In this document: piece after piece, positions 18,163 through 36,993 of the stretch
Layout: each line of letters starts with the position of its first letter
How positions within the stretch are numbered: the first letter of the stretch is position 1
Assembly (NCBI RefSeq): GCF_003718735.1
Contig: NZ_CP033460.1
Coordinates: 1,240,001 to 1,304,000, forward strand
Direction: 5' to 3'
Source of the DNA: Staphylococcus debuckii
GTDB lineage: Bacteria > Bacillota > Bacilli > Staphylococcales > Staphylococcaceae
Length of the DNA stretch: 64,000 nt
The notes under the pieces: model-generated
What the model was told of the DNA's origin: nothing
The model's database searches: none
The model's input: only the letters and a program-made list of their open reading frames with translations
Made by a program: the position numbers and the translations under genes

Positions 18163-18564
18163 GTGCACATTCCAAAAGTTACGACTTTTTTAATGTTCGA
18201 CAATCAAGCGGAAGAAGCAATTGAATTATACACATCGCTCTTTGAAGATAGCGAAGTGATTTCTATGGTGAAATACGATGAATTCGGAAGCGGTGAAGTG
18301 GGTGCTGTACAACATTCGATTTTCCGATTAAAAGACCAAATTCTAATGGCAATTGATAATACTAACGGAACAGAAATTCCGATGAATCCATCTATTTCGT
18401 TATTTGTGACAGTAGATAATGCAATGGAAATGGAACGTTTATATAGCGGCTTGAAGAAAGGCGGCGCAATCTTGATGGCCAAGACTGAATTAGGGCCTTA
18501 TCGCGAATTTGCTTGGATTCAAGATCGTTTTGGAGTGAATTTCCAACTTGCTTTAATGGATTAA
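18163..18564 (+). CDS. PhnB/YjdN-like VOC superfamily protein
   Basis: 133 residues of the PhnB-like glyoxalase fold. It begins IPKVTTFLMFDNQAEEAIELY, typical of the family, and ends with a WIQDRFGVNFQL motif. The GTG start follows AGGAGGGG. Such proteins are often mis-named demethylubiquinone methyltransferases, and the true activity of this group is mostly unknown. It stands alone between the pyr operon and the capsule locus, with its own terminator. Confidence 0.8.
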   Translation: MHIPKVTTFLMFDNQAEEAIELYTSLFEDSEVISMVKYDEFGSGEVGAVQHSIFRLKDQILMAIDNTNGTEIPMNPSISLFVTVDNAMEMERLYSGLKKGGAILMAKTELGPYREFAWIQDRFGVNFQLALMD

Positions 18565-18573
18565 AATAGAGTA

Positions 18574-18618
18574 AGCGGGGGCTGAGACAAGATAATGTCT
18601 TAGCCCCCGCTTCTTTTT
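18574..18618 (+). terminator. Strong terminator before the capsule operon
   Basis: AGCGGGGGCTGAGACA pairs with TGTCTTAGCCCCCGCT and is followed by TCTTTTTT. The loop-side GAGACA/TGTCT core resembles the terminators after ileS and pknB. Confidence 0.93.
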
Positions 18619-18687: not shown

Positions 18688-18693
18688 TATAAT
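18688..18693 (+). promoter_or_regulatory. Candidate -10 of the capsule operon promoter
   Basis: TATAAT lies 59 bases upstream of capA in an AT-rich gap. No good -35 is visible, which may mean activator dependence or simply a wrong assignment. Confidence 0.4.
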
Positions 18694-18751
18694 AGAAGTG
18701 TTTAGAGTAGTTTAAATGCATAATAAATAAATTTAGAGGATGAAGAACATC

Positions 18752-19411
18752 ATGGATAAAACATTAGATCTAAGTATTATATTTGCTGCTTTAAAGAAAA
18801 ATTTAAAATTGATTATTGGTCTGCCTATATTATTTTTGATTATTAGTACCTTAATAACTATGTTTCTTATAACGCCTAAATATACCTCATCTACCCAGGT
18901 TATCGTGACGCAAAAGAAAGTAGAACAGCAATTTCAAGCACAACAAACACAATCTGATTTGCAATTAATAAATACTTATGCTGAAGTGATTAAGAGTCCA
19001 AGAGTATTAGACACAGTTTCTGAAAGTTTAACACATCATTATTCAGGAAAAGAACTTGCCAAAATGATTTCTGTCAGTAATAAGTCAGAATCCAAAGTGT
19101 TGAATATCAGCGTGACTTCAACGCATGCTAATACTTCAAAAACGATTGCCAACACCACTGCTAAAGTGTTTCGAAAAGAAATCAAGAAAATCATGGATGT
19201 AGACAATGTTTCAGTATTGTCAAAAGCTGAAAAAGGAGAAAAAACCTCTCCGAATTTGTTAATTAACAGTGCTATAAGTTTCATCCTAGGTTTGGCTTTA
19301 GCCATAGTCTTTGCTTTTATTAGAGGAATTACTGATAAAAGAATTAAAGATGAAAAAGATGTAGAAGAATATTTAGAATTACCGGTTATTGGAACTATCA
19401 ATAGATTTTAG
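18752..19411 (+). CDS. capA: Capsule chain-length regulator / kinase activator (Wzz family)
   Basis: A polysaccharide co-polymerase of 219 residues. It has two membrane helices (about residues 21-41 and 170-192) flanking an extracellular domain that begins with the PKYTSSTQVIV motif. The cytoplasmic C-terminal tail in this family activates the partner CapB kinase. The start MDKTLDLS at 18752 was preferred over 18740, since TTAGAGGA lies at 18733-18740. It is the first gene of the capsule operon and 18 bases before capB. Confidence 0.92.
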   Translation: MDKTLDLSIIFAALKKNLKLIIGLPILFLIISTLITMFLITPKYTSSTQVIVTQKKVEQQFQAQQTQSDLQLINTYAEVIKSPRVLDTVSESLTHHYSGKELAKMISVSNKSESKVLNISVTSTHANTSKTIANTTAKVFRKEIKKIMDVDNVSVLSKAEKGEKTSPNLLINSAISFILGLALAIVFAFIRGITDKRIKDEKDVEEYLELPVIGTINRF

Positions 19412-19429
19412 AGGGGATTAAGAAGGAAA

Positions 19430-20125
19430 ATGAAGAATAAACGACTTAAGAATCATACACCATTAATTGCTCATACGAATCCTAAAACAGCTATCAGTGA
19501 AAAATTCAGAAGTCTTCGCACCAATATATTATTTTCAAACCCGGATAGACCCATCCATACTATTGTAGTGACGGCGGAGAAGCCGGGAGCAGGAAAAAGT
19601 ACAGTAGCAGCAAATTTAGCGATTGTCTATGCGCAAGCAGGATATAAAACACTGATTATTGACGGAGATATGCGTAAGCCTTCCTTACATTATTTGTTTA
19701 ATAGAGATAACCAAGTCGGTCTATCTTCGGCTATTATTAAGAGCGTTGAAGCGACAGATGCAGTACAAAGCACGGAAGTTGAATGGCTGGATATTTTAAC
19801 ATCTGGACCTACGCCGCCAAACCCTTCGGAATTAATCGGCTCAAAAAATTTCAAAGAAGTATATAAAACATTATTGCTGCACTATAATTTCATAGTCATT
19901 GATACACCGCCTGTTAATAGTGTCACAGATGCACAACTACTGGCAGAATATGGTCATAACGTCATACTCGTCATAGATGCAGAAGATAACAATAGAGATG
20001 AAGTTAAAAAGGGTAAGGAATTAATTGAAAAAACAGGTGCAAAAATCGTAGGAGTAGTAATGAATAAGGTCTCGGAAAAAGAGAGTCCAAGTTATTACTA
20101 TTATGGAGATGATAAAAATGATTGA
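19430..20125 (+). CDS. capB: Capsule tyrosine kinase (BY-kinase)
   Basis: A cytoplasmic bacterial tyrosine kinase that autophosphorylates and, with CapA, controls polymer length. It has 231 residues. Walker A is EKPGAGKST (Lys56), Walker A' is LIIDGDMRKP, and Walker B is FIVIDTPPVNS. A C-terminal tyrosine cluster (SYYYYG) supplies the autophosphorylation sites. AAGGAA precedes the ATG. It overlaps capC by 8 bases. Confidence 0.95.
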   Translation: MKNKRLKNHTPLIAHTNPKTAISEKFRSLRTNILFSNPDRPIHTIVVTAEKPGAGKSTVAANLAIVYAQAGYKTLIIDGDMRKPSLHYLFNRDNQVGLSSAIIKSVEATDAVQSTEVEWLDILTSGPTPPNPSELIGSKNFKEVYKTLLLHYNFIVIDTPPVNSVTDAQLLAEYGHNVILVIDAEDNNRDEVKKGKELIEKTGAKIVGVVMNKVSEKESPSYYYYGDDKND

Positions 20126-20891
20126 TATACATAATCATTTGTTAATAAATGTTGATGATGGAGCGCAAACAGATCAAGAAGCCATCCAACTTATTCAGCA
20201 AGCACAAGAAGAGGGAATAACAGGCATTATTGTTACACCTCATTATAGTAAACGGTATTCGAATTTTTTCGACCAAGTTGAGTTGAAAATAATAGAATTA
20301 TGTAACCTAAGAGAAGTAGAAAAGTCGAATATTAAAATATATCCTGGACAAGAAATTAGAATAAGTGGTGATTTGCTCGAAGACATTGATAACGAGAATG
20401 TTAAAGGTCTTAATTATTCAAAATATTTATTAATAGAATTTCCGCCTAATGAAGTGCCTCATTATACTAAGAAATTATTTTTTGATTTGCAGAATAAAGG
20501 TTATATTCCCATCATTGCCCATCCAGAACGTAATCTTGCAATTATGCAAGATATGAATTTGCTCTACGAATTAGTCAGTGCTGGGGCACTCAGTCAAGTC
20601 ACGTCATCCTCACTTGGAGGCTATTTTGGAAAGAATATACAGAAGGCTTCAATTAAGATGATCGAACATCATCTTGTGCATTTTATCGCTTCGGATGCAC
20701 ATCATGTCGGCTACAGGCCATTTATTATGCAGTCACTTTTTGAAGAGAAGAAATTAAAACCGCTTCACCATGATATGAAGCGACTGATCAGCAATGCTGA
20801 AGCTGTAATTGACAATCAACCAGTAACCAAAGAGCCGCCTTTACCACCTAAAGAGAAAAAGGGATTCAAAAGGTTTTCATTTTTAAAATAA
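20118..20891 (+). CDS. capC: Capsule tyrosine phosphatase (PHP family, CpsB/YwqE type)
   Basis: A manganese-dependent phosphatase that dephosphorylates the CapB tyrosine cluster. It has 257 residues. The metal-binding motifs of the PHP fold are intact: DIHNHLL at the N-terminus, TPHYS, HPERN and SDAHH. The ATG at 20118 follows GGAG at 20105-20108 within capB; an upstream frame from 20103 was rejected. The basic tail PKEKKGFKRF is unusual and longer than that of the second copy at 36265-36993. It is followed by a 59-base gap before capE, where S. aureus cap5/8 would have capD. Confidence 0.94.
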   Translation: MIDIHNHLLINVDDGAQTDQEAIQLIQQAQEEGITGIIVTPHYSKRYSNFFDQVELKIIELCNLREVEKSNIKIYPGQEIRISGDLLEDIDNENVKGLNYSKYLLIEFPPNEVPHYTKKLFFDLQNKGYIPIIAHPERNLAIMQDMNLLYELVSAGALSQVTSSSLGGYFGKNIQKASIKMIEHHLVHFIASDAHHVGYRPFIMQSLFEEKKLKPLHHDMKRLISNAEAVIDNQPVTKEPPLPPKEKKGFKRFSFLK

Positions 20892-20950
20892 ATTGAAAAT
20901 TGCAAATAATCGAGAATGCAACAAAGAAACTACAACAACAAGGTGATTTT

Positions 20951-21979
20951 ATGTTTGAAAATAAAATATTACTCATCACAGGAGGAACGGGTTCTTTTGG
21001 TAATGCTGTCATGAAACGATTTCTTGATAGCGAGATTAAAGAAATACGAATTTTCTCTAGAGATGAAAAGAAACAAGATGATATCAGAAAAAGATATCAT
21101 AATTCTAAACTGAAATTTTATATTGGTGATGTTCGCGAAAGAGAAAGTGTAGATAATGCAATGCGCGGAGTAGATTATGTCTTCCATGCAGCGGCGTTGA
21201 AACAAGTTCCGTCGTGTGAATTTTTCCCAATAGAAGCAGTTAAAACTAATGTGCTTGGTACTAATAATGTGTTAGAGTCTGCCATCCATGCAGGTGTGAA
21301 AAAGGTAATTTGTTTATCGACTGATAAAGCAGCATATCCCATCAACGCCATGGGAATTTCTAAAGCCATGATGGAAAAGGTGTTTGTGGCGAAATCTAGA
21401 AATATTGAAGATACAGATACAGTCATCTGCGGAACACGTTACGGGAATGTGATGGCTTCTCGTGGTTCAGTTATTCCATTATTTATAGAAAAAATTAAAA
21501 ATAAAGAACCTTTAACAGTAACAGACCCTTCCATGACTAGATTTTTAATGAGTTTGGAAGAAGCAGTAGAATTAGTCATACATGCATTTAAAAATGCAGA
21601 AAATGGCGATATTATGGTTCAAAAATCACCCGCTTCTACGGTAGGTGACTTAGCGCAAGCCTTGCTGGAATTATTTGAAGCGGATAATAAAATAAAAATC
21701 ATTGGAACACGTCATGGAGAAAAAAGAGCAGAAACACTATTAACTAGAGAAGAATATGCGCACGCTGATGATTTAGGTAATTATTATCGTGTACCAGCTG
21801 ATTCTAGAGATTTGAATTATAGTAATTATGTAGAAGAAGGCAGTCCGAAAATAACGGAAGCCTACGAATATAACTCTGACAATACACGAATATTGAATGT
21901 CGAAGAGATTAAAGAGAAATTATTAACCTTAGATTATGTACGCAGAGAATTAGCAGAAATAAATAATACATCAAGATAG
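20951..21979 (+). CDS. capE: UDP-GlcNAc 4,6-dehydratase / 5-epimerase
   Basis: First enzyme of UDP-N-acetyl-L-fucosamine synthesis: dehydrates UDP-GlcNAc and inverts C5. It has 342 residues, the same as S. aureus CapE. The NAD(P) motif is TGGTGSFG, and the active site carries Met in MGISK where most short-chain dehydrogenases have Tyr, a known CapE trait. The ATG at 20951 follows AAGGTG; a longer frame from 20900 lacks conserved residues. It is very similar to the S. aureus protein and forms a block with capF and capG. Confidence 0.96.
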   Translation: MFENKILLITGGTGSFGNAVMKRFLDSEIKEIRIFSRDEKKQDDIRKRYHNSKLKFYIGDVRERESVDNAMRGVDYVFHAAALKQVPSCEFFPIEAVKTNVLGTNNVLESAIHAGVKKVICLSTDKAAYPINAMGISKAMMEKVFVAKSRNIEDTDTVICGTRYGNVMASRGSVIPLFIEKIKNKEPLTVTDPSMTRFLMSLEEAVELVIHAFKNAENGDIMVQKSPASTVGDLAQALLELFEADNKIKIIGTRHGEKRAETLLTREEYAHADDLGNYYRVPADSRDLNYSNYVEEGSPKITEAYEYNSDNTRILNVEEIKEKLLTLDYVRRELAEINNTSR

Positions 21980-21988
21980 GTGAAGAAA

Positions 21989-23101
21989 ATGAAAGCAATT
22001 GCTGTAACAGGTGCAAATGGTTTTGTAGGTAAAAATTTAGTAGCAGATTTAAATTTAAATGATGATTATAAAGTGTTGCCGATTACGAAAGCAACGCCTT
22101 TGCAAGAACGTGACCAATATTTAAAACAAGCTGATTTTATTGTGCATCTTGCGGGCGTCAATCGTACTGAAGATGACACTGAGTATACTCAAGGCAATGT
22201 GTATCTTTTACAAGAGTTATTAGGAGTGATTCAAGAAAATCCTAAGCATCCGACTATTCTTCTTTCATCTTCAATTCATGCTGCAAATGATACACCTTAT
22301 GGCAGAAGTAAATTAGAAGCTGAAGAAGTGTTGGAAAAATTTGCTGAGGATAATGAGAATGAAATCTTGATTTACCGTTTCCCTAATTTATTTGGTAAAT
22401 GGTGTAATCCGGACTATAACTCAGTAGTAGCAACATTTTGTTATCATATTTCCAGAAATGCTGAAGTAAGTGTTCACGATTCAAATGTCCAATTAACACT
22501 GAATTATATTGATGATGTCGTAGCTGAGATTGAACGTGCGATTAAAGGAAATCCTACTTTATTAGATAACAAGCCGACTGTTCCGAACGTTTTACGAATC
22601 ACTGTCGGAAATCTAGTGAAGAAAATTAAAGCATTTAAACAATCTCGAGAAAATCTAACTGTGCCGCATCTCGCTGATCCACTTGAAAAAGCTTTATACA
22701 GTACGTATTTAAGTTATTTACCTGAAGATGACTTCAGCTATATGCTTCCGATGCACACAGATGATAGAGGCAGCTTTACAGAATTTATTAAGACAGTTGA
22801 CCACGGCCAGGTCTCTATTAACGTTTCTAAACCAGGCGTTACTAAAGGCAACCATTGGCATCACACTAAGGTTGAAAAATTCTTAGTCGTATCAGGAAAA
22901 GGAGTAATCCGCTTCAGAAACATCAGAAGTAATGAGATTATCGAATACTTTGTAACGGGCACACAATTAGAAGTTGTAGACGTACCAGTAGGTTACACAC
23001 ATAATATTGAAAACTTAGGTGACAGTGATTTGATTACAGTAATGTGGGCTAACGAACCATTTAATCCTGCCAATCCTGACACTTACGCTTTAGAGGTCTA
23101 A
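21989..23101 (+). CDS. capF: UDP-2-acetamido-2,6-dideoxy-hexulose reductase/epimerase
   Basis: Second enzyme of the UDP-L-FucNAc path. It has 370 residues with two domains: an N-terminal short-chain reductase (TGANGFVGKN; S..YGRSK) and a C-terminal cupin (about 255-370) with the metal site in KGNHWHHTKVEKF. Together they epimerise C3 and reduce C4. The ATG at 21989 follows ATAGGTGA; an in-frame GTG at 21980 overlaps that site. Two bases separate it from capG. Confidence 0.96.
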   Translation: MKAIAVTGANGFVGKNLVADLNLNDDYKVLPITKATPLQERDQYLKQADFIVHLAGVNRTEDDTEYTQGNVYLLQELLGVIQENPKHPTILLSSSIHAANDTPYGRSKLEAEEVLEKFAEDNENEILIYRFPNLFGKWCNPDYNSVVATFCYHISRNAEVSVHDSNVQLTLNYIDDVVAEIERAIKGNPTLLDNKPTVPNVLRITVGNLVKKIKAFKQSRENLTVPHLADPLEKALYSTYLSYLPEDDFSYMLPMHTDDRGSFTEFIKTVDHGQVSINVSKPGVTKGNHWHHTKVEKFLVVSGKGVIRFRNIRSNEIIEYFVTGTQLEVVDVPVGYTHNIENLGDSDLITVMWANEPFNPANPDTYALEV

Positions 23102-23103
23102 TT

Positions 23104-24228
23104 ATGAGCAAATTAAAATTAATGACTATTGTTGGAACAAGACCAGAAATTATCCGTTTGTCTGCAACGATTAAAGCCTGTGACCAATATTTCAATCAAG
23201 TCTTAGTGCATACCGGACAAAACTATGATTACACGTTAAACGAAGTTTTTTTCGAAGAGCTAGAGCTGCGTGAGCCAGACTACTTTTTAGAAGCGGTCGG
23301 CAAAGATTTAGGTGAGACAATGGGTAATATTATTTCTAAATCTTATGAAGTATTAGCTAAAGAGAGACCAGACGCATTATTGATTCTTGGTGATACAAAC
23401 AGCTGTTTATCTGCAGTAGCGGCCAAACGTTTAAAGATTCCCGTGTTTCATATGGAAGCGGGAAATCGCTGCTTTGATCAGAATGTACCTGAAGAAATCA
23501 ATCGTAAAATCGTGGATCATGTCAGCGATGTGAATTTGCCTTATACCGAACACAGTCGCAGATATTTACTAGATGAAGGGTTTAAAAAAGAAAATATTTT
23601 CGTAACAGGTTCACCGATGCGTCAAGTTCTAGAAGAATATCAAGAAAAAATTAATCACAGCAAAATATTATCTGAATTGGAATTAGAACCTCAACGTTAT
23701 ATTTTAGTTTCTGCACATCGTGAGGAAAATATTGATAATGAAAAGAATTTTAATTCTCTAATGCAAGCAATAAACAACATCGCAGAGCGGTACCAATTAC
23801 CGGTAATTTATTCGACACATCCGCGTAGCTGGAAGAAAATCGAAGAACGTCAATTTAAATTCCATCCGCTAGTGAAACAACTTAAACCATTTGGATTCTT
23901 CGATTATAACTATTTGCAGAAGAATGCATTTGTGGTGCTTTCTGATAGCGGTACATTATCTGAAGAATCTTCTATTTTAAAATTTCCTGGTGTGTTAATT
24001 AGAACTTCAACAGAACGCCCGGAAGTCTTAGATAAAGGAACAGTGGTGGTCGGAGGTATTACCTTTGAAACCATTACACAATCGGTGGAACTTGCCCGTC
24101 ACATGCAAGATAATAACGAACCTTATGTAGGTGCGCTTGATTATAAAGATACAAATGTAGCACAAAAAGTCGTTAAAATCATTCAAAGCTATACAGATAT
24201 TATTAATAGAAATACATGGAGAAAGTAA
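23104..24228 (+). CDS. capG: UDP-N-acetylglucosamine 2-epimerase-type enzyme, CapG
   Basis: Last step giving UDP-L-FucNAc by C2 epimerisation. It has 374 residues of the WecB/CapG fold. Visible motifs are GTRPEIIRL, HTGQNYDY, GDTNS, HMEAGNRCFDQ with EEINR, SAHREEN and SDSGTLSEES. AGAGGTC precedes the ATG. Placement after capE and capF argues for the FucNAc path over ManNAc synthesis. Confidence 0.94.
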   Translation: MSKLKLMTIVGTRPEIIRLSATIKACDQYFNQVLVHTGQNYDYTLNEVFFEELELREPDYFLEAVGKDLGETMGNIISKSYEVLAKERPDALLILGDTNSCLSAVAAKRLKIPVFHMEAGNRCFDQNVPEEINRKIVDHVSDVNLPYTEHSRRYLLDEGFKKENIFVTGSPMRQVLEEYQEKINHSKILSELELEPQRYILVSAHREENIDNEKNFNSLMQAINNIAERYQLPVIYSTHPRSWKKIEERQFKFHPLVKQLKPFGFFDYNYLQKNAFVVLSDSGTLSEESSILKFPGVLIRTSTERPEVLDKGTVVVGGITFETITQSVELARHMQDNNEPYVGALDYKDTNVAQKVVKIIQSYTDIINRNTWRK

Positions 24229-24235
24229 GCTGCTT

Positions 24236-25522
24236 ATGAAGATAAAAGTTAGGCTATTAACATCAATTCTAGAATATTCATTAATTGTAGCGATTTTTAT
24301 TTTGAGTCTAATCAATAATTATTTACTTATCTTTAGTTTGCTTTTAGGAACATTTTATATTTTCAAAGGTAGAATAGGTTTCCTAAAACTAACCACCCTC
24401 ATTACTATTCGTTATCTGATATCACCTGCGCTTGATCATAGCACATTGCCAACTGTGATGGTGGGTTATAAATTCGGAGTGCTCTTTATCTTTGGAAGTT
24501 TGATTGTGATATATTTTCGTAAAAAAATATTACAGAATAAAATATTGACGAATTTTATTTTTGTAACGATGACGGTTTGGGTCTTGTATATTATTTTCGG
24601 TGTTTCTCATTTGAACTCAATAATTTTAATTTTAGGTAAGAGTTTCGCCTATTTTTATACACTTATTATTATTGTGGCAGTGCTAGGTATAACAAACGAA
24701 ATAAAACGCTTTATGATTTGGTTTTCGTTTATTTTAAGTTTCGTAATTTTAGGTTCTTTAATTTATATACGTCACCCTATAGGTTATTTACTAAATGGTT
24801 TTTCTTTTCAAGGAATATTAAATCATCCTAATTTATTCGGAGTATTTATGACGCTCGCTTTAACTTTAATAGTCGTCAACTTATTTAAATTCAAGCAATA
24901 TAAACTATTTTATATCTTTATATTGATAATTGGAATTACGGAATTATTCTTATCAAATTCCAGAACTGCAGTATTGGCATTACTGTTATCTTTAGGTGTA
25001 ATGTTCATTATTTCCCGTATCAGTCTAGGCAAGAAATTATTGTTATTCACAATAGCTTTACTGGGAAGTTTTATTATTTTAGTAGTACCAAACATAAATG
25101 AGTATGTATTAGGGTTTATTCAGAAAGGGCAATCGAGCAGCCAAGTATTATATTCTAGATATATTCAAATTGATTATGTGAAATGGGGATTGGAACATGC
25201 ACCATTTTTCGGTTCTGGTTTTGGTGTGCCTTTAAATAACAGTAGTTTAGCTTTGGCATCTACAACCTTTGAAGCAGGGAATCTCTTATTTGGATTAATT
25301 ATTTACACTGGAATTATCGGAACGTTAATATACTTATTTTATTTAATATATGTAGGTACATTATCTTTTAAAAAATCAGGCATCGCTTTTACACTTTTTG
25401 TAGCCACACTTTTTGTAAATATTGGTGAAATGATTATGTTTAGTCCTAATAGCTTAGGTATTATGTGCTATATCTTTTGGGGGATTTTCTTAAAAGAAGG
25501 GATGACTCAATATGAACAATAA
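24236..25522 (+). CDS. wzy: Capsular polysaccharide polymerase, Wzy-like membrane protein
   Basis: 428 residues, almost wholly hydrophobic, with about 11-12 predicted membrane helices. A larger outer loop (about residues 290-345) contains GSGFG, and NHPNLFG with SNSRTAV are typical of O-antigen ligase/polymerase proteins. Wzy joins lipid-linked repeat units on the outer face. The sequence is poorly conserved in this family, so the assignment rests on topology and on position between the sugar-nucleotide genes and the flippase. GGAG precedes the ATG. It overlaps the next gene by 11 bases. Codon use is more AT-rich than in capE-G. Confidence 0.75.
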   Translation: MKIKVRLLTSILEYSLIVAIFILSLINNYLLIFSLLLGTFYIFKGRIGFLKLTTLITIRYLISPALDHSTLPTVMVGYKFGVLFIFGSLIVIYFRKKILQNKILTNFIFVTMTVWVLYIIFGVSHLNSIILILGKSFAYFYTLIIIVAVLGITNEIKRFMIWFSFILSFVILGSLIYIRHPIGYLLNGFSFQGILNHPNLFGVFMTLALTLIVVNLFKFKQYKLFYIFILIIGITELFLSNSRTAVLALLLSLGVMFIISRISLGKKLLLFTIALLGSFIILVVPNINEYVLGFIQKGQSSSQVLYSRYIQIDYVKWGLEHAPFFGSGFGVPLNNSSLALASTTFEAGNLLFGLIIYTGIIGTLIYLFYLIYVGTLSFKKSGIAFTLFVATLFVNIGEMIMFSPNSLGIMCYIFWGIFLKEGMTQYEQ

Positions 25523-26810
25523 ATATCGTTTGAATGTAATATTATCTGCAGTTTTTACAATTGCAGCATTAATTGCTAATTTTTTATTGTATCGTTCATC
25601 TCATTACTTTTTGAAAAATGAACAATTATATGGCGTTTGGCTGGTTATTTTATCTATTATTTCTTGGTTTTATATCTTAGATTTCGGTATTTCTAATTCA
25701 TTGAGAAATAAATTGACAGAAGCGATTAAATTAAATGATCGCCCTCTGCAACAACGCTTAATCGCAACAAGTTATTTGATAATGCTGATACCGACTGTAG
25801 TTTTAATCGGAGTAGGGCTATGTGTCAATTATTTTGTTAATTGGGCAGAGTTATTGAATGCAACACATCACCAATTTGAAATTAATGTAATGGTGAAAAT
25901 TGCTTTTGTCCTATTTCCTATAATTTTCTATCTGAATACGATTACTTATATTTATCATGCGTTCTTTAAATCTTATATAGTAAATGCGATTCAATTCTTT
26001 AATTTATTTATCAGCAGTGTCGTCATATTCTTTTTAGCACCTTCTTTTGAAGGAAATTTAATTATTATGGCGCTTGCTTATTTTGCGATTAATATTTTGG
26101 TTTATCTGATATTTACTTGGGATTTTATTCGGAAGTCTCATTTTAATATAGTTTCTATAAAATATTTCGATAAATCATTGATTAAAGATTTGCTTTCAAT
26201 GGGAATTGCGTTCTTTTTATTAGACATTGCTAGTTTGTTTCTATTGAATTCAGGACCTATACTGATCAGTTACTTTTTTAATCCAGAATATTCGGTAGTG
26301 TTTCAGTTACCTTATAAGCTGTTGAGTATATTCCTAACAGTTTCAACTATTTTCTTGTCACCTTTATGGACACTCGTGATTAATTACTACGTAGCTAATG
26401 ATTTGAAATCTATTCAGAGTATCAATAAAAAGATTGCTGTGTATTTATGTGGGTTAATTATTATAATCTTAATTTCTACTTTATTTATTAATGAAGGAAT
26501 TTACTTATGGATTGGACATAATTATCATATTAAGATCACAACTATTTTACTTATTGCATTTATAGTAATACTATCCATTATTGCGCATACATATAAAACT
26601 TTATTGAATGCTATAAGTAAGATTTATATTCAAGTTGTATTTTATGGATTGTCATTAATCATAACTCTAAGTTGCATGAAAATATTCTTAATTGATCATG
26701 ATGGGAATCTCGAAGCATTTTTATGGTCTTTAATTATAGGTATGCTCTTTTCAAGCGTTATGCTGCCTGTGGTTTATTATAGATTTCTGCATAAAATGAA
26801 AGGACAGTGA
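25512..26810 (+). CDS. wzx: Polysaccharide repeat-unit flippase, Wzx-like (MOP superfamily)
   Basis: 432 residues with about 12-14 membrane helices across the whole length. The N-terminus shows the Wzx/MATE-like FGISNSLRNKL motif after the second helix. By context it flips undecaprenyl-linked oligosaccharide across the membrane for Wzy. It is translationally coupled to the polymerase before it (11-base overlap) and to the glycosyltransferase after it (GTGA overlap). AT-rich composition suggests acquisition with its neighbours. Confidence 0.8.
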   Translation: MNNKYRLNVILSAVFTIAALIANFLLYRSSHYFLKNEQLYGVWLVILSIISWFYILDFGISNSLRNKLTEAIKLNDRPLQQRLIATSYLIMLIPTVVLIGVGLCVNYFVNWAELLNATHHQFEINVMVKIAFVLFPIIFYLNTITYIYHAFFKSYIVNAIQFFNLFISSVVIFFLAPSFEGNLIIMALAYFAINILVYLIFTWDFIRKSHFNIVSIKYFDKSLIKDLLSMGIAFFLLDIASLFLLNSGPILISYFFNPEYSVVFQLPYKLLSIFLTVSTIFLSPLWTLVINYYVANDLKSIQSINKKIAVYLCGLIIIILISTLFINEGIYLWIGHNYHIKITTILLIAFIVILSIIAHTYKTLLNAISKIYIQVVFYGLSLIITLSCMKIFLIDHDGNLEAFLWSLIIGMLFSSVMLPVVYYRFLHKMKGQ

Positions 26811-27850
26811 TTATTATAAAAATTTTAGTATTAGATTATGCCAGTGATAAAGGCGGCGCTAATAGAATTTCTAAATATATAAATGATGAAATGCTTAACG
26901 ATACTAAAAATCATTGGTTGCTCATTACTAGTGTTTTTCAGCCGATTGAAAATAGCAGAGTAAAGAATATCAGTGTGCCTTGGATTAAAAAGAGTTTGTT
27001 GAGTCGTTTATGGTTTGAAAAAGTTATTCTACCTCAAATAATTAAAAACTTCGGGCCGGATGTAGTTTTTTCGTTGCAAAATTTAAAAACAAAGGCATTT
27101 AAAGGTTCGCAAGTTGTTTATTTGCATCAGTCACTGCCTTTCGTCAATTATCCATTAAAGAGCAAGTTTAATGGAATTGCAAAGTTAAAAATAAAACTAT
27201 TAAGCCGATTAATTAAAAAAGATGTAAAAACTACTGATTTAATACTTGTGCAAACACAATTTATGCTTGATCAAGTGAAAAAATATAATAAAAATGTAGT
27301 GCAAGTTATGCCGAAGTTATTTAATCATCATAGCGATACTACTCATAAAGCGAATGATTTTATTTACCCAACAAGCGCTCAGAATTATAAACGATTTGAC
27401 TTAGTTGAACAAATTGCAGAAATGATTAAAAAGAAGCAACTGAAAATGCGCATTTTATTAACTTTAGAAGGCAATGAGAATAAAAATTTAGTGCGCTTAA
27501 AACAAAAGACTAGTGCAGAAAAATTACCAATTGAGTTTATTGGTTATCAAGATCAGAAGCAATTAAAAGAATTATATAAAACACATAATTTGTTATTCAC
27601 TTCTGAAATTGAAAGCTTAGGATTACCTTTAATCGAAGCGATGCATTTTGGATGTAAGATTTTGGCTTATGATATCCCTGTAACTAGAGAAGTATTAGGT
27701 GATTACCCGTACAAAGTATTGTTTCAATCTGAAGATATAGAAAATAGCATGCAAGTATTTTATAAAGGTTTAACAACGCCTAGTAAAGGGCATGATATAG
27801 AACCAACGTCACTACTGAAAGTACTTAGAGAAAATCATCTTATAGATTAA
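26807..27850 (+). CDS. Glycosyltransferase, GT-B fold (GT4-like)
   Basis: 347 residues. The C-terminal donor domain shows the family signature ESLGLPLIEAMHFGCKI (E-x7-E), and the N-terminal domain starts ILVLDYASDKGGANR. It is a retaining glycosyltransferase that should add one sugar to the lipid-linked repeat unit at the inner membrane face. The GTG start overlaps the flippase stop (GTGA) with AAAGGA upstream. Donor and linkage cannot be read from the sequence. Confidence 0.8.
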   Translation: MIIIKILVLDYASDKGGANRISKYINDEMLNDTKNHWLLITSVFQPIENSRVKNISVPWIKKSLLSRLWFEKVILPQIIKNFGPDVVFSLQNLKTKAFKGSQVVYLHQSLPFVNYPLKSKFNGIAKLKIKLLSRLIKKDVKTTDLILVQTQFMLDQVKKYNKNVVQVMPKLFNHHSDTTHKANDFIYPTSAQNYKRFDLVEQIAEMIKKKQLKMRILLTLEGNENKNLVRLKQKTSAEKLPIEFIGYQDQKQLKELYKTHNLLFTSEIESLGLPLIEAMHFGCKILAYDIPVTREVLGDYPYKVLFQSEDIENSMQVFYKGLTTPSKGHDIEPTSLLKVLRENHLID

Positions 27851-27866
27851 CAACGGAGTTTAGCTT

Positions 27867-29057
27867 ATGACAAAACAAAATATTTTATTTATTACGCAAT
27901 ACTATGAGCCAGAACCATTTATCATTTCTGAAGTAGCAGAAAGTTTGGTGGCTCAAGGCAACAATGTAACAGTTCTAACAGGATTACCGAATTATCCAGA
28001 AGGCAAAGTTTATCCAGGGTATCATGCAGGCCATTTTTCCGAACAGGGAATACAACTTATCAGATTGAAAATCAGACCAAGAAAGCAAGGTAAAGTTAAT
28101 TTATTCTTGAACTACTTATCCTACGCTTTCCAAGCTTCTAGAAAAGTTTTAACTTTTGGCAATGAATTTGATGTAGTATATGTATATCAATTGTCTCCAA
28201 TATTACTCGCTATTCCAGGAATTATTTATAAATCAATACATAAAAAGAAATTAGTGTTGTATTGTTTGGATTTATGGCCGCAAAGCTTAATTTCAGGAGG
28301 AATCAAGCCGGGTTCTTTTGTCTATAATTGTTTCTTAGGTATTAGCCGTTATATTTATAGAAGGGCAGATATCGTTCAAATCAGCAGTAAGTCTTTCGAA
28401 AAATATTTTAAGAAAGAAATTAAAAAGGTGAAAGTACTGAGATATCAACCGCAATTTGCGGACGATTATTTCCTGCAATCTTTGCCAGATGAAAAGGTAG
28501 AGGAAGATAAAACGCATACTCATATTTTGTTTGCTGGAAATATCGGACATTTGCAGTCACTAGAAACGTGGATAGAAGCGGTCGCATTACTAAAAGATTC
28601 TAACTTAATTCTTGATGTGGTAGGCGACGGCTCTCATTTTGAAGCGATTAAAGAAAAAGTACAAAAATATCATTTAAATGATAAAGTAATCTTACATGGA
28701 AGAAAACCGAAAAGTGAAATGCCGATATATTATCAACAAGCAGATGCACTGGCTGTGTCATTGATAAATGATGAAGTAATTTCTTATACATTGCCGGGTA
28801 AAGTTCAAACTTATATGGCAAGTAAAAAACCAATTATAGCATCTATAAATGGTGAAGCTGCAGATATCATCAGAACAGCTGAATGTGGTTTGGTTAGTCC
28901 GGCAGAAAACGCGGAATTATTAGCGGAAAATATGAGAAAATTTATAGAAATCAGTCAAGCGGATAAAGACAGAATGGCAGATAATGGAGTCGACTATTAT
29001 TTGAAACATTTCACTAAAGCAGATTTTGTACGTAGATTAATAGAAGATTTGCAATAG
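27867..29057 (+). CDS. Glycosyltransferase, WbuB/CapL-like (probable FucNAc transferase)
   Basis: 396 residues, GT-B fold, GT4 family. The N-terminus ITQYYEPEPFIISEVAE and the LYCLDLWPQSL motif are typical of WbuB-type FucNAc transferases; the C-terminal donor domain has LPGKVQTYMASKKPI. It resembles S. aureus CapL, which transfers FucNAc, and the operon makes UDP-FucNAc. The specific donor is inference. It is the last gene of the capsule operon and ends just before the shared hairpin at 29057-29093. CGGAG precedes the ATG. Confidence 0.8.
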   Translation: MTKQNILFITQYYEPEPFIISEVAESLVAQGNNVTVLTGLPNYPEGKVYPGYHAGHFSEQGIQLIRLKIRPRKQGKVNLFLNYLSYAFQASRKVLTFGNEFDVVYVYQLSPILLAIPGIIYKSIHKKKLVLYCLDLWPQSLISGGIKPGSFVYNCFLGISRYIYRRADIVQISSKSFEKYFKKEIKKVKVLRYQPQFADDYFLQSLPDEKVEEDKTHTHILFAGNIGHLQSLETWIEAVALLKDSNLILDVVGDGSHFEAIKEKVQKYHLNDKVILHGRKPKSEMPIYYQQADALAVSLINDEVISYTLPGKVQTYMASKKPIIASINGEAADIIRTAECGLVSPAENAELLAENMRKFIEISQADKDRMADNGVDYYLKHFTKADFVRRLIEDLQ

Positions 29058-29093
29058 AAAAACGGGGTTGGAACAAACATGTTCCAATCCCGT
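29057..29093 (-). terminator. Terminator of rqcH, shared by convergent capsule operon
   Basis: A perfect 14-bp stem at 29062-29075 and 29080-29093. The U run TTTTT follows only on the minus strand, so it best terminates rqcH, whose stop is 3 bases away. It also sits 5 bases after the capsule operon and may stop that transcript less efficiently. Confidence 0.85.
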
Positions 29094-29095
29094 TG

Positions 29096-30805
29096 TTATG
29101 CTTTCTGAGCATTATTTTTCATCTCTTGAATTTTATCGTAATCCGGTGTTGCGTACAATGTTTTTTGATTATCATAAGTTACAAAACCAGGTTTTGCACC
29201 TGAAGGTTTATGCACATTACGGATTTCAGTATAATCTACCGGAACTTGTGCAGAATTACCTGCTTTCGAGAAGTAGGCGGATAACATAGCCGCTTCTTCC
29301 ACTGTCGTTTCACTCGGTTCATCTGCAAAAATCACCACATGTGAACCCGGAATGTCTTTTGTATGGAACCACAAATAACCCTTTCGCGCTTTCTTATTCG
29401 TCAGATAATCATTCTGTTTATTATTCTTACCAACATAAATTAAATCGCCATCTGAAGATAAATAGGTCTGCAATTGAATTTGCGGCTGTTTCTTTTTCTT
29501 GCGGTTCTGACGTTGTTTCATGAACCCTTGTTCGGCCAACTCTTCGCGGATTTCGTCAATATCTTCAACAGTGATATGCGTCAACTGCTGTTCGATAGAC
29601 TCAAAATAGTCAATATTTTCTTCAGTCAATTGAATTTGTCGTTCCAATTCATGTTCGCGCGTTTTTAAACGATTATACTGTTTGTAATAGTACTGCGCAT
29701 TTACAGAAGGAGATTTCGTTGGATCTAAAGGAATCGTCACTTCTTCGCCTGTATAATAATTTTGCGTAGTCAGTGACTCGTCACCTTGTTGAATACGGTA
29801 AATATTCGCTGTAATGAGCTCGCCGTACAATTGTTCTGTTTCTTTAGATTGCGTACCTTCATATTCAGCATGCAATTTCGTCAGCTTATTACGGCTTTTC
29901 TGTAATTGTTGCTGCACAAATTTAACTAAATCATTCGCACGCTGTTTCACACGTTCGCGTTCGCCACGAGCATCATAGAAACGATCTAGCAGCTCATCTA
30001 GGGAGTCGTACACAACACTGTCATCGTCAAATTGTTTTAAGCGCATGAAATAGAAGTCTTCTTTTCCGGTTTCGTGATTTTTATGAAAAATCGGTACAGG
30101 CTCTAATTTGGTTTCTGCCATGACTTCGTCGTAAGCAGCCGGCAAGGTTTCAGAAGTCATAAACTGACGGCGCTCGGTAATCTCTTTAGTAATCAGTGGG
30201 CTGAACCCTTCAAAGTTTTGTAATAATTGCCGCGCCACATTTCCTTGGTTGAAATCAATGTATTTGAGCACTTCTTGCCCTGTGACTTCATAAGGATTCA
30301 TTTTATTTTGAGTAGGCGGCGCCTCGTATTTGAAACCAGGCATCACCGTACGATACTGATTCGTATTCGGAGTCAGATGCTTGAATCCTTCTATAATCTT
30401 GCGTTCATTATCAACTAAGATTAAATTACTATGTTTACCCATGATTTCTAAGATAACAGTACGATAAATTTTATCGCCGAGTTCATCCGTACTTTGAATA
30501 TCAATTTCAATATGTCTGTCATTGCCGATTTGGCGGACGTCTTGAATAATCCCTCCATCTAAATGTTTGCGGAAGACGCGCGTAAACATCGGCGGTTCAA
30601 AGGGATTATTATATTTCTTATGAGTAATGTGCATACGTGAAAAATTGGAATGGATGGAAAGTAATAATTGATGGTTCTTTCGGTTCTGACGTACAACCAT
30701 AATAATGGTATCATTATCAGGCTGATTGATTTTATGAATGCGTCCACCTTTTAGGAACTGAAGTTCTTCAACCATCTTTCTAGTAAAAAGGCCATCATAA
30801 GCCAT
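29096..30805 (-). CDS. rqcH: Ribosome quality control protein RqcH (NFACT family)
   Basis: Binds stalled 50S-peptidyl-tRNA and recruits tRNA-Ala to add C-terminal alanine tails. It has 569 residues: NFACT-N with the conserved Asn-Asp-Arg at residues 95-97 (GNDRHIEID) needed for tRNA handling, helix-hairpin-helix, two coiled-coil arms (about 275-330 and 370-430) and NFACT-R (about 445-560, FHTKDIPGSHVVIF). Formerly called fibronectin-binding protein FbpA/YloA. The start MAYDGLF at 30805 gives better spacing from AAAGGTGG than the ATG at 30811. It is transcribed against the capsule operon and divergently from gmk. Confidence 0.94.
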   Translation of the reverse strand: MAYDGLFTRKMVEELQFLKGGRIHKINQPDNDTIIMVVRQNRKNHQLLLSIHSNFSRMHITHKKYNNPFEPPMFTRVFRKHLDGGIIQDVRQIGNDRHIEIDIQSTDELGDKIYRTVILEIMGKHSNLILVDNERKIIEGFKHLTPNTNQYRTVMPGFKYEAPPTQNKMNPYEVTGQEVLKYIDFNQGNVARQLLQNFEGFSPLITKEITERRQFMTSETLPAAYDEVMAETKLEPVPIFHKNHETGKEDFYFMRLKQFDDDSVVYDSLDELLDRFYDARGERERVKQRANDLVKFVQQQLQKSRNKLTKLHAEYEGTQSKETEQLYGELITANIYRIQQGDESLTTQNYYTGEEVTIPLDPTKSPSVNAQYYYKQYNRLKTREHELERQIQLTEENIDYFESIEQQLTHITVEDIDEIREELAEQGFMKQRQNRKKKKQPQIQLQTYLSSDGDLIYVGKNNKQNDYLTNKKARKGYLWFHTKDIPGSHVVIFADEPSETTVEEAAMLSAYFSKAGNSAQVPVDYTEIRNVHKPSGAKPGFVTYDNQKTLYATPDYDKIQEMKNNAQKA

Positions 30806-30904
30806 TGTCATCAGCCACCTTTAATAGTTTCGTTGTACTTAATACGTTCTTATTATTGTATCATGCGAAGTAAGAGTTGACACGTACAGGGCTTGTACAG
30901 AATT

Positions 30905-36264: not shown

Positions 36265-36993
36265 ATGATTGATTTGCACAACCACATTATTTATAACATT
36301 GACGACGGTGCAAAGGATATAGAGGAATCGATTGAAATGGCTAAAGCAGCACAAGCAACAGGTGTTGATAAAATCATAGCTACCCCACATTATAAAACAA
36401 ATTCATTTATGTCAGATAAAGATGAAATCATACATAAAATTGAAACATTAAATCAGCGATTGCAGAACTTAAATATAAATGTTGAAGTGAAAGGTGGCCA
36501 AGAAATTCATATTGAACCCTATACACTTGATTATTTAGAAAAAGGTCAGCTGCTTTCTTTAGCGGACAGTCAGTATTACTTTCTAATCGAGCCGCCGTTC
36601 AAAGGGTTCCCAAATTTTATTGAAACCACTATAGATGGCTTTATTCAAGAAGGCCTGCAACCAGTAATTGCGCATCCTGAACGTAATGATTATATAAGAA
36701 GTCATCCTGAAATGTTAGATAAGTTAGTGAAAAAAGGTTGCTTATTGCAAATGAATGCTGCGTCTGTGCTTGGAGATTATGGACCATTAATCGAAAAGAC
36801 CGCACAATATATGATTGAAAATAAGAAATTTCATCTAATCGGCAGTGATGCACATAATTGCAATAACCGTGTATTCTGCATAGATCAATGTTATGAGAGA
36901 ATTAACGATGAAGCGTTTCAAAATTATATCAAAACCAATACTGAAAAAGTATGGGAAGGTAATAAAAAGATAGATAATATGCAGTATTTTTAA
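36265..36993 (+). CDS. Second PHP-family tyrosine phosphatase, CapC/YwqE paralogue, orphan
   Basis: 242 residues with all PHP metal motifs intact (DLHNHII, TPHYK, HPERN, SDAHN). It is a paralogue of capC at 20118-20891 and starts with the same MID.HNH.L layout, but has no kinase or co-polymerase gene beside it. The ATG at 36265 follows GAGGAAGGAT. The open frame to 36103 runs through the tandem repeat and has no ribosome site. It may act on the CapB kinase of the nearby capsule operon or on another BY-kinase. It stands next to the possible integration scar and is probably accessory. Confidence 0.85.
   Translation: MIDLHNHIIYNIDDGAKDIEESIEMAKAAQATGVDKIIATPHYKTNSFMSDKDEIIHKIETLNQRLQNLNINVEVKGGQEIHIEPYTLDYLEKGQLLSLADSQYYFLIEPPFKGFPNFIETTIDGFIQEGLQPVIAHPERNDYIRSHPEMLDKLVKKGCLLQMNAASVLGDYGPLIEKTAQYMIENKKFHLIGSDAHNCNNRVFCIDQCYERINDEAFQNYIKTNTEKVWEGNKKIDNMQYF

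Follow-up and report, generated by a model that had tools for sequence, protein, structure and literature searches.

A compact N-acetyl-L-fucosamine capsule operon without an initiating transferase at a variable, clade-specific site in Staphylococcus debuckii

The closest described relatives of the locus considered here include the cap5/cap8 capsule loci of Staphylococcus aureus and an O-antigen cluster for N-acetylfucosamine (FucNAc) in Escherichia coli O15. Both CapM and CapE are targets of the CapAB kinase in S. aureus, being phosphorylated and activated by it (PMC6441080). PMC5560731 and PMC6467956 place WecA usually outside the cluster in E. coli and Shigella, and describe WbuB as an L-FucNAc transferase, linked to FucNAc(1->3)GlcNAc (GlcNAc, N-acetylglucosamine). 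For the pneumococcal type 4 capsule, whose locus contains fnl genes, E. coli WecA is reported to compensate for the initiator (PMC4838161). The present locus is a capsule operon of Staphylococcus debuckii in a 64-kb stretch of contig NZ_CP033460.1 (positions 1,240,001 to 1,304,000; hereafter the window). It is a real and compact L-FucNAc capsule operon that carries no initiator of its own. From its gene content it would be complete for making an L-FucNAc repeat by the Wzx/Wzy route and, on balance, is probably primed in trans by TagO.

Gene content of the operon

The operon consists of ten intact open reading frames (ORFs) between 18740 and 29057 of the window, all on the + strand: capA, capB, capC, capE, capF, capG, wzy, wzx, gt1 and gt2 (Table 1). 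Their families, assigned with Pfam and NCBIfam, agree with the initial annotation, which had read ten co-directional genes as a Wzx/Wzy operon. The hallmarks of such a capsule system are present, namely a flippase, a polymerase and a Wzz/bacterial tyrosine (BY)-kinase co-polymerase, with the Wzy_C match barely over its cut-off and Wzx recognised by homology. The Wzx protein itself has no Pfam match and is assigned as the flippase from the PF01943/PF01554 matches of a number of relatives. Junctions between the genes are tight and terminator-like stem-loops flank the operon on both sides. The guanine plus cytosine content of wzy, wzx and gt1 is 28-30% vs. 37.4% for the window. An Rfam scan of the window gave no match reaching the gathering threshold.

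The family search found no initiating transferase within the ten genes, and no capD-, capM-, capN-, capO- or capP-type or acetyltransferase gene, so the earlier remark that capD and an initiator are missing from the locus stands. An initiator hidden in gt1 or gt2 was ruled out, as neither protein matches PF02397 or PF00953.

The claimed closeness of CapEFG to the S. aureus enzymes was also borne out, with CapE identical to the solved Cap8E at 280 of 333 aligned residues (84%) and CapF matching Cap5F. All four CapE residues phosphorylated by CapAB in S. aureus (tyrosines 76, 290, 293 and 329, the aligned part of Cap8E being taken to begin at residue 2) are tyrosine in the window CapE. Its likely ATG at 20951 lies inside ORF 20900-21979, and the likely start of CapC (MIDIHNH, at 20118) inside ORF 20103-20891. 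For comparison across species, 84 genomes of the genus and 108 of the family were used, one genome per species. Among 17 further genus genomes in which capG was seen next to capF, CapG is 83-87% identical to that of the window in 16 and 75% identical in the remaining one, G046.

Candidate initiators and a proposed pathway

Since the operon has no initiator, initiation must occur in trans if the operon works. The source genome, one contig of 2,691,850 bases (G000), encodes a single PF02397 transferase, at 620 kb. Two PF00953 proteins were found. One, encoded at 823 kb, resembles WecA/TagO, although its TIGR02380 match (E 4.6e-44, 151 bits) falls short of the cut-off of the model; the second is read as MraY from its neighbour genes. 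Outside the window, at 761 kb, is the gene for the only full CapD-like dehydratase. A genome search for CapM, CapD and TagO homologues therefore yields one PF02397 protein, one TagO/WecA-type protein and one full CapD-like protein. The suggestion that chain initiation is borrowed from another locus thus has candidates at 620 kb and 823 kb, together with the CapD-like gene.

TagO is the somewhat favoured initiator, ahead of the 620-kb transferase, which is a rather unlikely one. In the pathway proposed from the gene families, TagO would make GlcNAc-PP-undecaprenol, while CapE, CapF and CapG would convert uridine diphosphate (UDP)-GlcNAc to UDP-L-FucNAc. L-FucNAc would then be added by gt2 and a third, common sugar by gt1, before the unit is flipped by Wzx and polymerised by Wzy, with CapA, CapB and CapC setting activity and length. 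Two glycosyltransferases (GTs) and one initiator would fit the repeat of perhaps three sugars put forward earlier. CapE is the likely phosphorylated control point because the second known S. aureus target, CapM, is absent here. As all four phosphotyrosine positions are kept, control through CapE could persist.

The case for TagO is built on G046 and on E. coli O15. G046 carries a sister operon (L165) of the order capA-B-C-E-F-G-wzy-wzx-GT-gt1, which likewise has no capD and no initiator. Its Wzx, Wzy and gt1 are 48%, 40% and 43% identical to those of the window, but its other GT is of a different class from gt2 (24% over 221 residues). It also differs in lying at a different place, with adjoining genes read as V8/staphopain-like. 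Neither a PF02397 protein nor a strong PF02719 (CapD-like) protein besides CapE was found in the G046 draft genome, which has two PF00953 proteins. Among the 19 capF-positive genomes of the genus, only G046 has no detected PF02397. TagO is favoured because a genome with the sister operon shows no PF02397 or CapD-like protein and because the FucNAc cluster of E. coli O15 has no cis initiator. The Wzx and Wzy of G046, proteins that should fit the repeat, and their identity to those of the window were also counted for TagO.

G046 also bears on the improbable alternative that the operon is crippled, having lost its initiator and heading toward the remnants seen in sibling species. Such remnants do lie at the same site in the siblings, and relatives of the module have PF02397 ahead of gt2, with an ORF resembling a short-chain dehydrogenase/reductase (SDR) between them in 15 of 18. 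However, none of the ten genes is disrupted, the junctions are tight, terminator-like sites frame the operon, and in G046 the same initiator-less layout is intact at another site.

The priming of related loci was surveyed by assigning the GTs of 80 capF loci to three classes on their highest phmmer score, with cut-offs of at least 190 bits for the gt2 class and at least 150 bits each for the WbuB/G046 class and the CapL-like class. Only loci reaching 21 kb (60) entered the count of cis initiators, leaving aside the 20 shorter ones. The gt2 class comprises 18 named loci, all with the gt2-class gene directly upstream of capE. PF02397 stands in front of gt2 in these loci, and the intervening ORF read as SDR-like is present in 15 of the 18. 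In L056 gt2 directly follows PF02397, with no SDR or CapD-like ORF between capC and gt2, and the gt2 acceptor therefore need not be a 6-deoxy sugar. Of 25 loci in the WbuB/G046 class, 17 have PF02397; the eight without it are three at 21 kb and five on shorter pieces. All 16 loci of the CapL-like class (one being the query itself) have PF02397, and 21 of the 80 loci have unclassed GTs. Homologues of gt1 directly follow capG in L033, L076 and L086.

Several of these results weigh against priming by TagO. A cis initiator is the norm for capF loci, as PF02397 was found in 51 of the 60 and a match to the TagO of the source genome in none. The named loci with a gt2-class GT have PF02397 in cis without exception (18/18). 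With 23% identity to the GT beside the WbuC-family gene of E. coli O15, gt2 is not WbuB-class. The G046 draft, although 99% complete, is in about 90 contigs with the operon on one of 16.9 kb, and a PF02397 gene could have been missed.

The count for the gt2 class also speaks for the rather unlikely alternative, in which the 620-kb PF02397 transferase would initiate, borrowed from a second cluster. The 761-kb dehydratase would perhaps feed it and the first sugar would be a 6-deoxy amino sugar. This is the sole PF02397 found in the genome, and at least one PF02397 gene, scoring 192-197 bits, is present in all eight genomes of the clade around S. debuckii (defined below). Against this, the 620-kb transferase looks like a DegT-paired type. 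Nine capF loci have a DegT homologue at 54% identity or more, and eight of them have a PF02397 protein sharing 44-53% identity with the 620-kb transferase; the GT of the nine is WbuB/G046-class in seven, unclassed in two and gt2-class in none. The cluster at 620 kb also has its own GT and Wzy, and no PF02397 was found in the G046 draft despite the sister operon there.

The second cluster spans 616.9-623.8 kb (L004 10935-17827) and consists of genes for a DegT aminotransferase, an ATP-grasp protein, an SDR, the PF02397 transferase, a GT and Wzy. No capABC was found in this stretch. The last 123 residues of the ORF after Wzy, which is split between two stretches, have no Pfam match; a flippase at that position is a guess. 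At 759.5-763.5 kb (L163 5541-9463) the gene for the CapD-like dehydratase, present in 8/8 clade genomes, lies between a Wzz-like gene and a nucleotidyltransferase gene read as galU, with no PF02397 gene in the stretch. A further capA, capB and capC lie at 2474-2476 kb (L164 8336-10458) beside a biotin-synthase-like gene, with no other capsule genes found in the 19-kb stretch. A 3.3-kb stretch of this place also occurs in G018, at 83% DNA identity.

If TagO primes the polymer, capsule and wall teichoic acid would share their first lipid-linked sugar and inhibition of TagO would hit both, and the species would lack the control that S. aureus exerts at CapM. The shared starter is also a point for a very improbable reading, that the sugar chain made here is not a classical capsule but a secondary cell-wall polymer or other glycan, as is the fact that polymer location cannot be read from sequence. 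However, the homology and order of capABC and capEFG match capsule loci.

The glyox-rqcH site and orphan capC genes

The initial annotation took the operon as an insertion between the pyr operon and rqcH. The position holds, the exact site being between the PF06983 gene (here glyox) and rqcH, but a single insertion into an empty gap is not what the comparison shows. (The flank names pyrE, rqcH, gmk, coaBC, priA and def are readings of the sequence, not family-search results.) Eight genomes (G000, G049, G014, G018 and G062-G065) form a clade in which RqcH is at least 88% identical to that of the window, vs. at most 80% in the other genomes. Between glyox and rqcH, capC was found in 8/8 of this clade vs. 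0/28 intervals examined outside it. G049 has capC and a capF (51%), G014 and G018 capC alone, G063 capC, G062 an interrupted capC, and G064 an interrupted capB with capC. In G065 (L116 2825-5130) capC is accompanied by genes for a UDP-GlcNAc 2-epimerase and a UDP-sugar dehydrogenase (Pfam), perhaps a remnant of another capsule type. The clade has a resident capsule site here, of variable content.

Comparison of the interval across the genus also shows that the locus is not a universal wall-polymer cluster, as capF is present in 19/84 genomes and lies between pyrE and rqcH in only two (G000 and G049), while the window Wzx occurs in 2/108 family genomes (G000 and G046). The genes pyrE and rqcH share a contig in 81/84 genus genomes, with a median gap of 1,973 bases and the largest, 11,504 bases, in the source genome. 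A large protein set contains Wzx relatives at 52-54% labelled S. saprophyticus, S. equorum and Mammaliicoccus species, so the family also exists in strains beyond the genome sample. A plasmid-borne origin was rejected: among 72,556 plasmid records Wzx has one match (Subdoligranulum, 26.7%), and CapG matches 259 records, 257 of them below 60% and none above 62%.

Allele exchange at this site probably brought in the operon. The capC genes of the window and G049 are 66% identical with a synonymous difference of 0.745, vs. 99% and 0.320 for rqcH. As capC is far more divergent, exchange has probably affected one of the two alleles, and grouping of the G049 capC with G014 and G018 (72%) suggests that it was that of the window. 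Against an exchange, the synonymous difference between the window and G014 is no larger for capC (0.701) than for rqcH (0.708), with both near saturation; the source of an exchange would then be a close relative. Such exchange at a resident site may be a route by which capsule type changes, as this locus illustrates.

Capsule genes also occur on the far side of the rqcH-gmk-coaBC-priA block in some clade genomes. In G000, G049, G014 and G018 a lone capC (capC2) lies between priA and def, and is read as the remnant of a second capsule site. G065 has a larger set there (L198 5450-13125), with GT, Wzy_C, Polysacc_synt (flippase) and GT2 genes and capABC; this stretch has no match to PF02397 and possibly represents another trans-primed locus. 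Directly downstream of priA, G063 and G064 have capABC, PF02397 and sugar genes, in stretches that end before def. No capC was found between priA and def in G042, G012 or G006, nor in the G062 stretch, which stops at a contig end.

A third place is occupied in G080 by a lone capC (L207 7004-7771) where G046 has the sister operon. The gene is 77% identical to that of G046 at the DNA level and the downstream flank 74-75%; the capE-to-gt1 stretch is missing and other genes intervene upstream relative to G046. The lone capC of G080 adjoins genes read as V8/staphopain-like.

Ratios of nonsynonymous to synonymous change (dN/dS), taken pairwise and with no significance test, range from 0.09 to 0.22 for these capC genes. 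They are 0.09 (G000-G049) and 0.11 (G014-G018) for the lone capC2 and 0.115 for G046/G080, while for G014-G018 the first-site capC gives 0.22 vs. 0.04 for rqcH. On these ratios capC is constrained, but less so than rqcH. CapC itself occurs in 42/84 genus genomes.

These capC-only sites were less expected than the operon itself and are the most novel part of the findings. A tentative interpretation is that, in staphylococci, capsule operons are gained and lost at a small number of fixed chromosomal sites, and that capC tends to outlast the loss, kept by purifying selection. The phosphatase would then serve a purpose independent of the capsule, such as restraining the kinases of other loci, and orphan capC would mark former capsule sites. 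The weaker constraint relative to rqcH and the interrupted capC of G062 count against this, as does the small number of events, about three to four, given that the cases partly share clade ancestry. It is less likely that capC was resident first and operons were assembled around it, since capC follows capB, as it usually does. The repeated survival of lone capC raises a testable question on the role of a capsule phosphatase without a capsule. Searches of open-licence papers gave no title on this operon or on orphan capC in staphylococci.

Table 1. Features of the operon and its surroundings (window positions)
Feature	Position	Strand	Family evidence or remark
Left flank, PF06983 gene (glyox)	18163-18564	+	adjoins rqcH in sampled staphylococci
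Terminator-like site after glyox	18573-18612		
capA, Wzz-type chain-length/kinase-activator protein	18740-19411	+	PF02706 E 1.2e-21; TIGR01006 below cut-off
capB, BY-type tyrosine autokinase	19430-20125	+	AAA_31/ParA-like (Pfam); TIGR01007 249 bits, over cut-off
capC, PHP-type tyrosine phosphatase	20118-20891	+	CpsB_CapC, PF19567 E 8e-54
capE, UDP-GlcNAc 4,6-dehydratase/5-epimerase, FnlA-like	20951-21979	+	Polysacc_synt_2 and Polysacc_syn_2C
capF, UDP-sugar 4-reductase, WbjC-type	21980-23101	+	PF14667 (Polysacc_synt_C) and PF01370 (Epimerase); Cap5F 2zkl E 2e-157
capG, 2-epimerase giving UDP-L-FucNAc, WecB-type	23104-24228	+	PF02350 (Epimerase_2); TIGR00236 over cut-off
wzy, polymerase	24236-25522	+	Wzy_C PF04932 E 1.3e-7, 31.9 vs. 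cut-off 31.7
wzx, repeat-unit flippase	25512-26810	+	relatives carrying PF01943/PF01554
gt1, putative third-sugar transferase	26807-27850	+	Glycos_transf_1 (PF00534)
gt2, WcaI-like, candidate L-FucNAc transferase	27867-29057	+	Glycos_transf_1 (PF00534)
Terminator-like stem-loop between gt2 and convergent rqcH	29061-29094		
Right flank, rqcH	29096-30811	-	
Orphan capC2 between priA and def	36265-36993	+	PF19567 E 4e-55

Likeness to known systems

The cap5/cap8 loci of S. aureus share homologous capABC and capEFG, the Wzx/Wzy layout and the CapE phosphorylation positions with the window operon. They differ in that the window operon has no capD/capN/capM (initiation with N-acetyl-D-fucosamine), no capO/capP (N-acetylmannosaminuronic acid) and no acetyltransferase, and in lying at a different site. 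The GT gt2 scores 110 bits to a CapL-like gene of S. massiliensis (labelled CapL by position) vs. 375 bits to the gt2-class gene of Sporosarcina. Sporosarcina sp. HYO08 (L076) and a metagenome-assembled genome of Fredinandcohnia onubensis (L086) resemble the window in having a gt2-class gene directly before capE and a gt1-like gene directly after capG. Unlike the window, they carry PF02397 and an SDR-like ORF ahead of gt2 and a CapD-like gene in the locus.

The O15 cluster of E. coli (L168) has wzx, wzy, fnlA-wbjC-wecB and two GTs with no initiating transferase in the stretch, as in the window, but it is for a Gram-negative O antigen, has no capABC and has a GT of the WbuB class. The E. coli O98 stretch (L169) was rejected as a FucNAc precedent, as it has no initiator but another reductase replaces capF. 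For the lone capC, the nearest likeness is an orphan phosphatase of Streptococcus pyogenes, which belongs to a family other than CapC. PMC8689070 describes its gene as an orphan tyrosine phosphatase gene without a typical BY-kinase, which is where it resembles lone capC.

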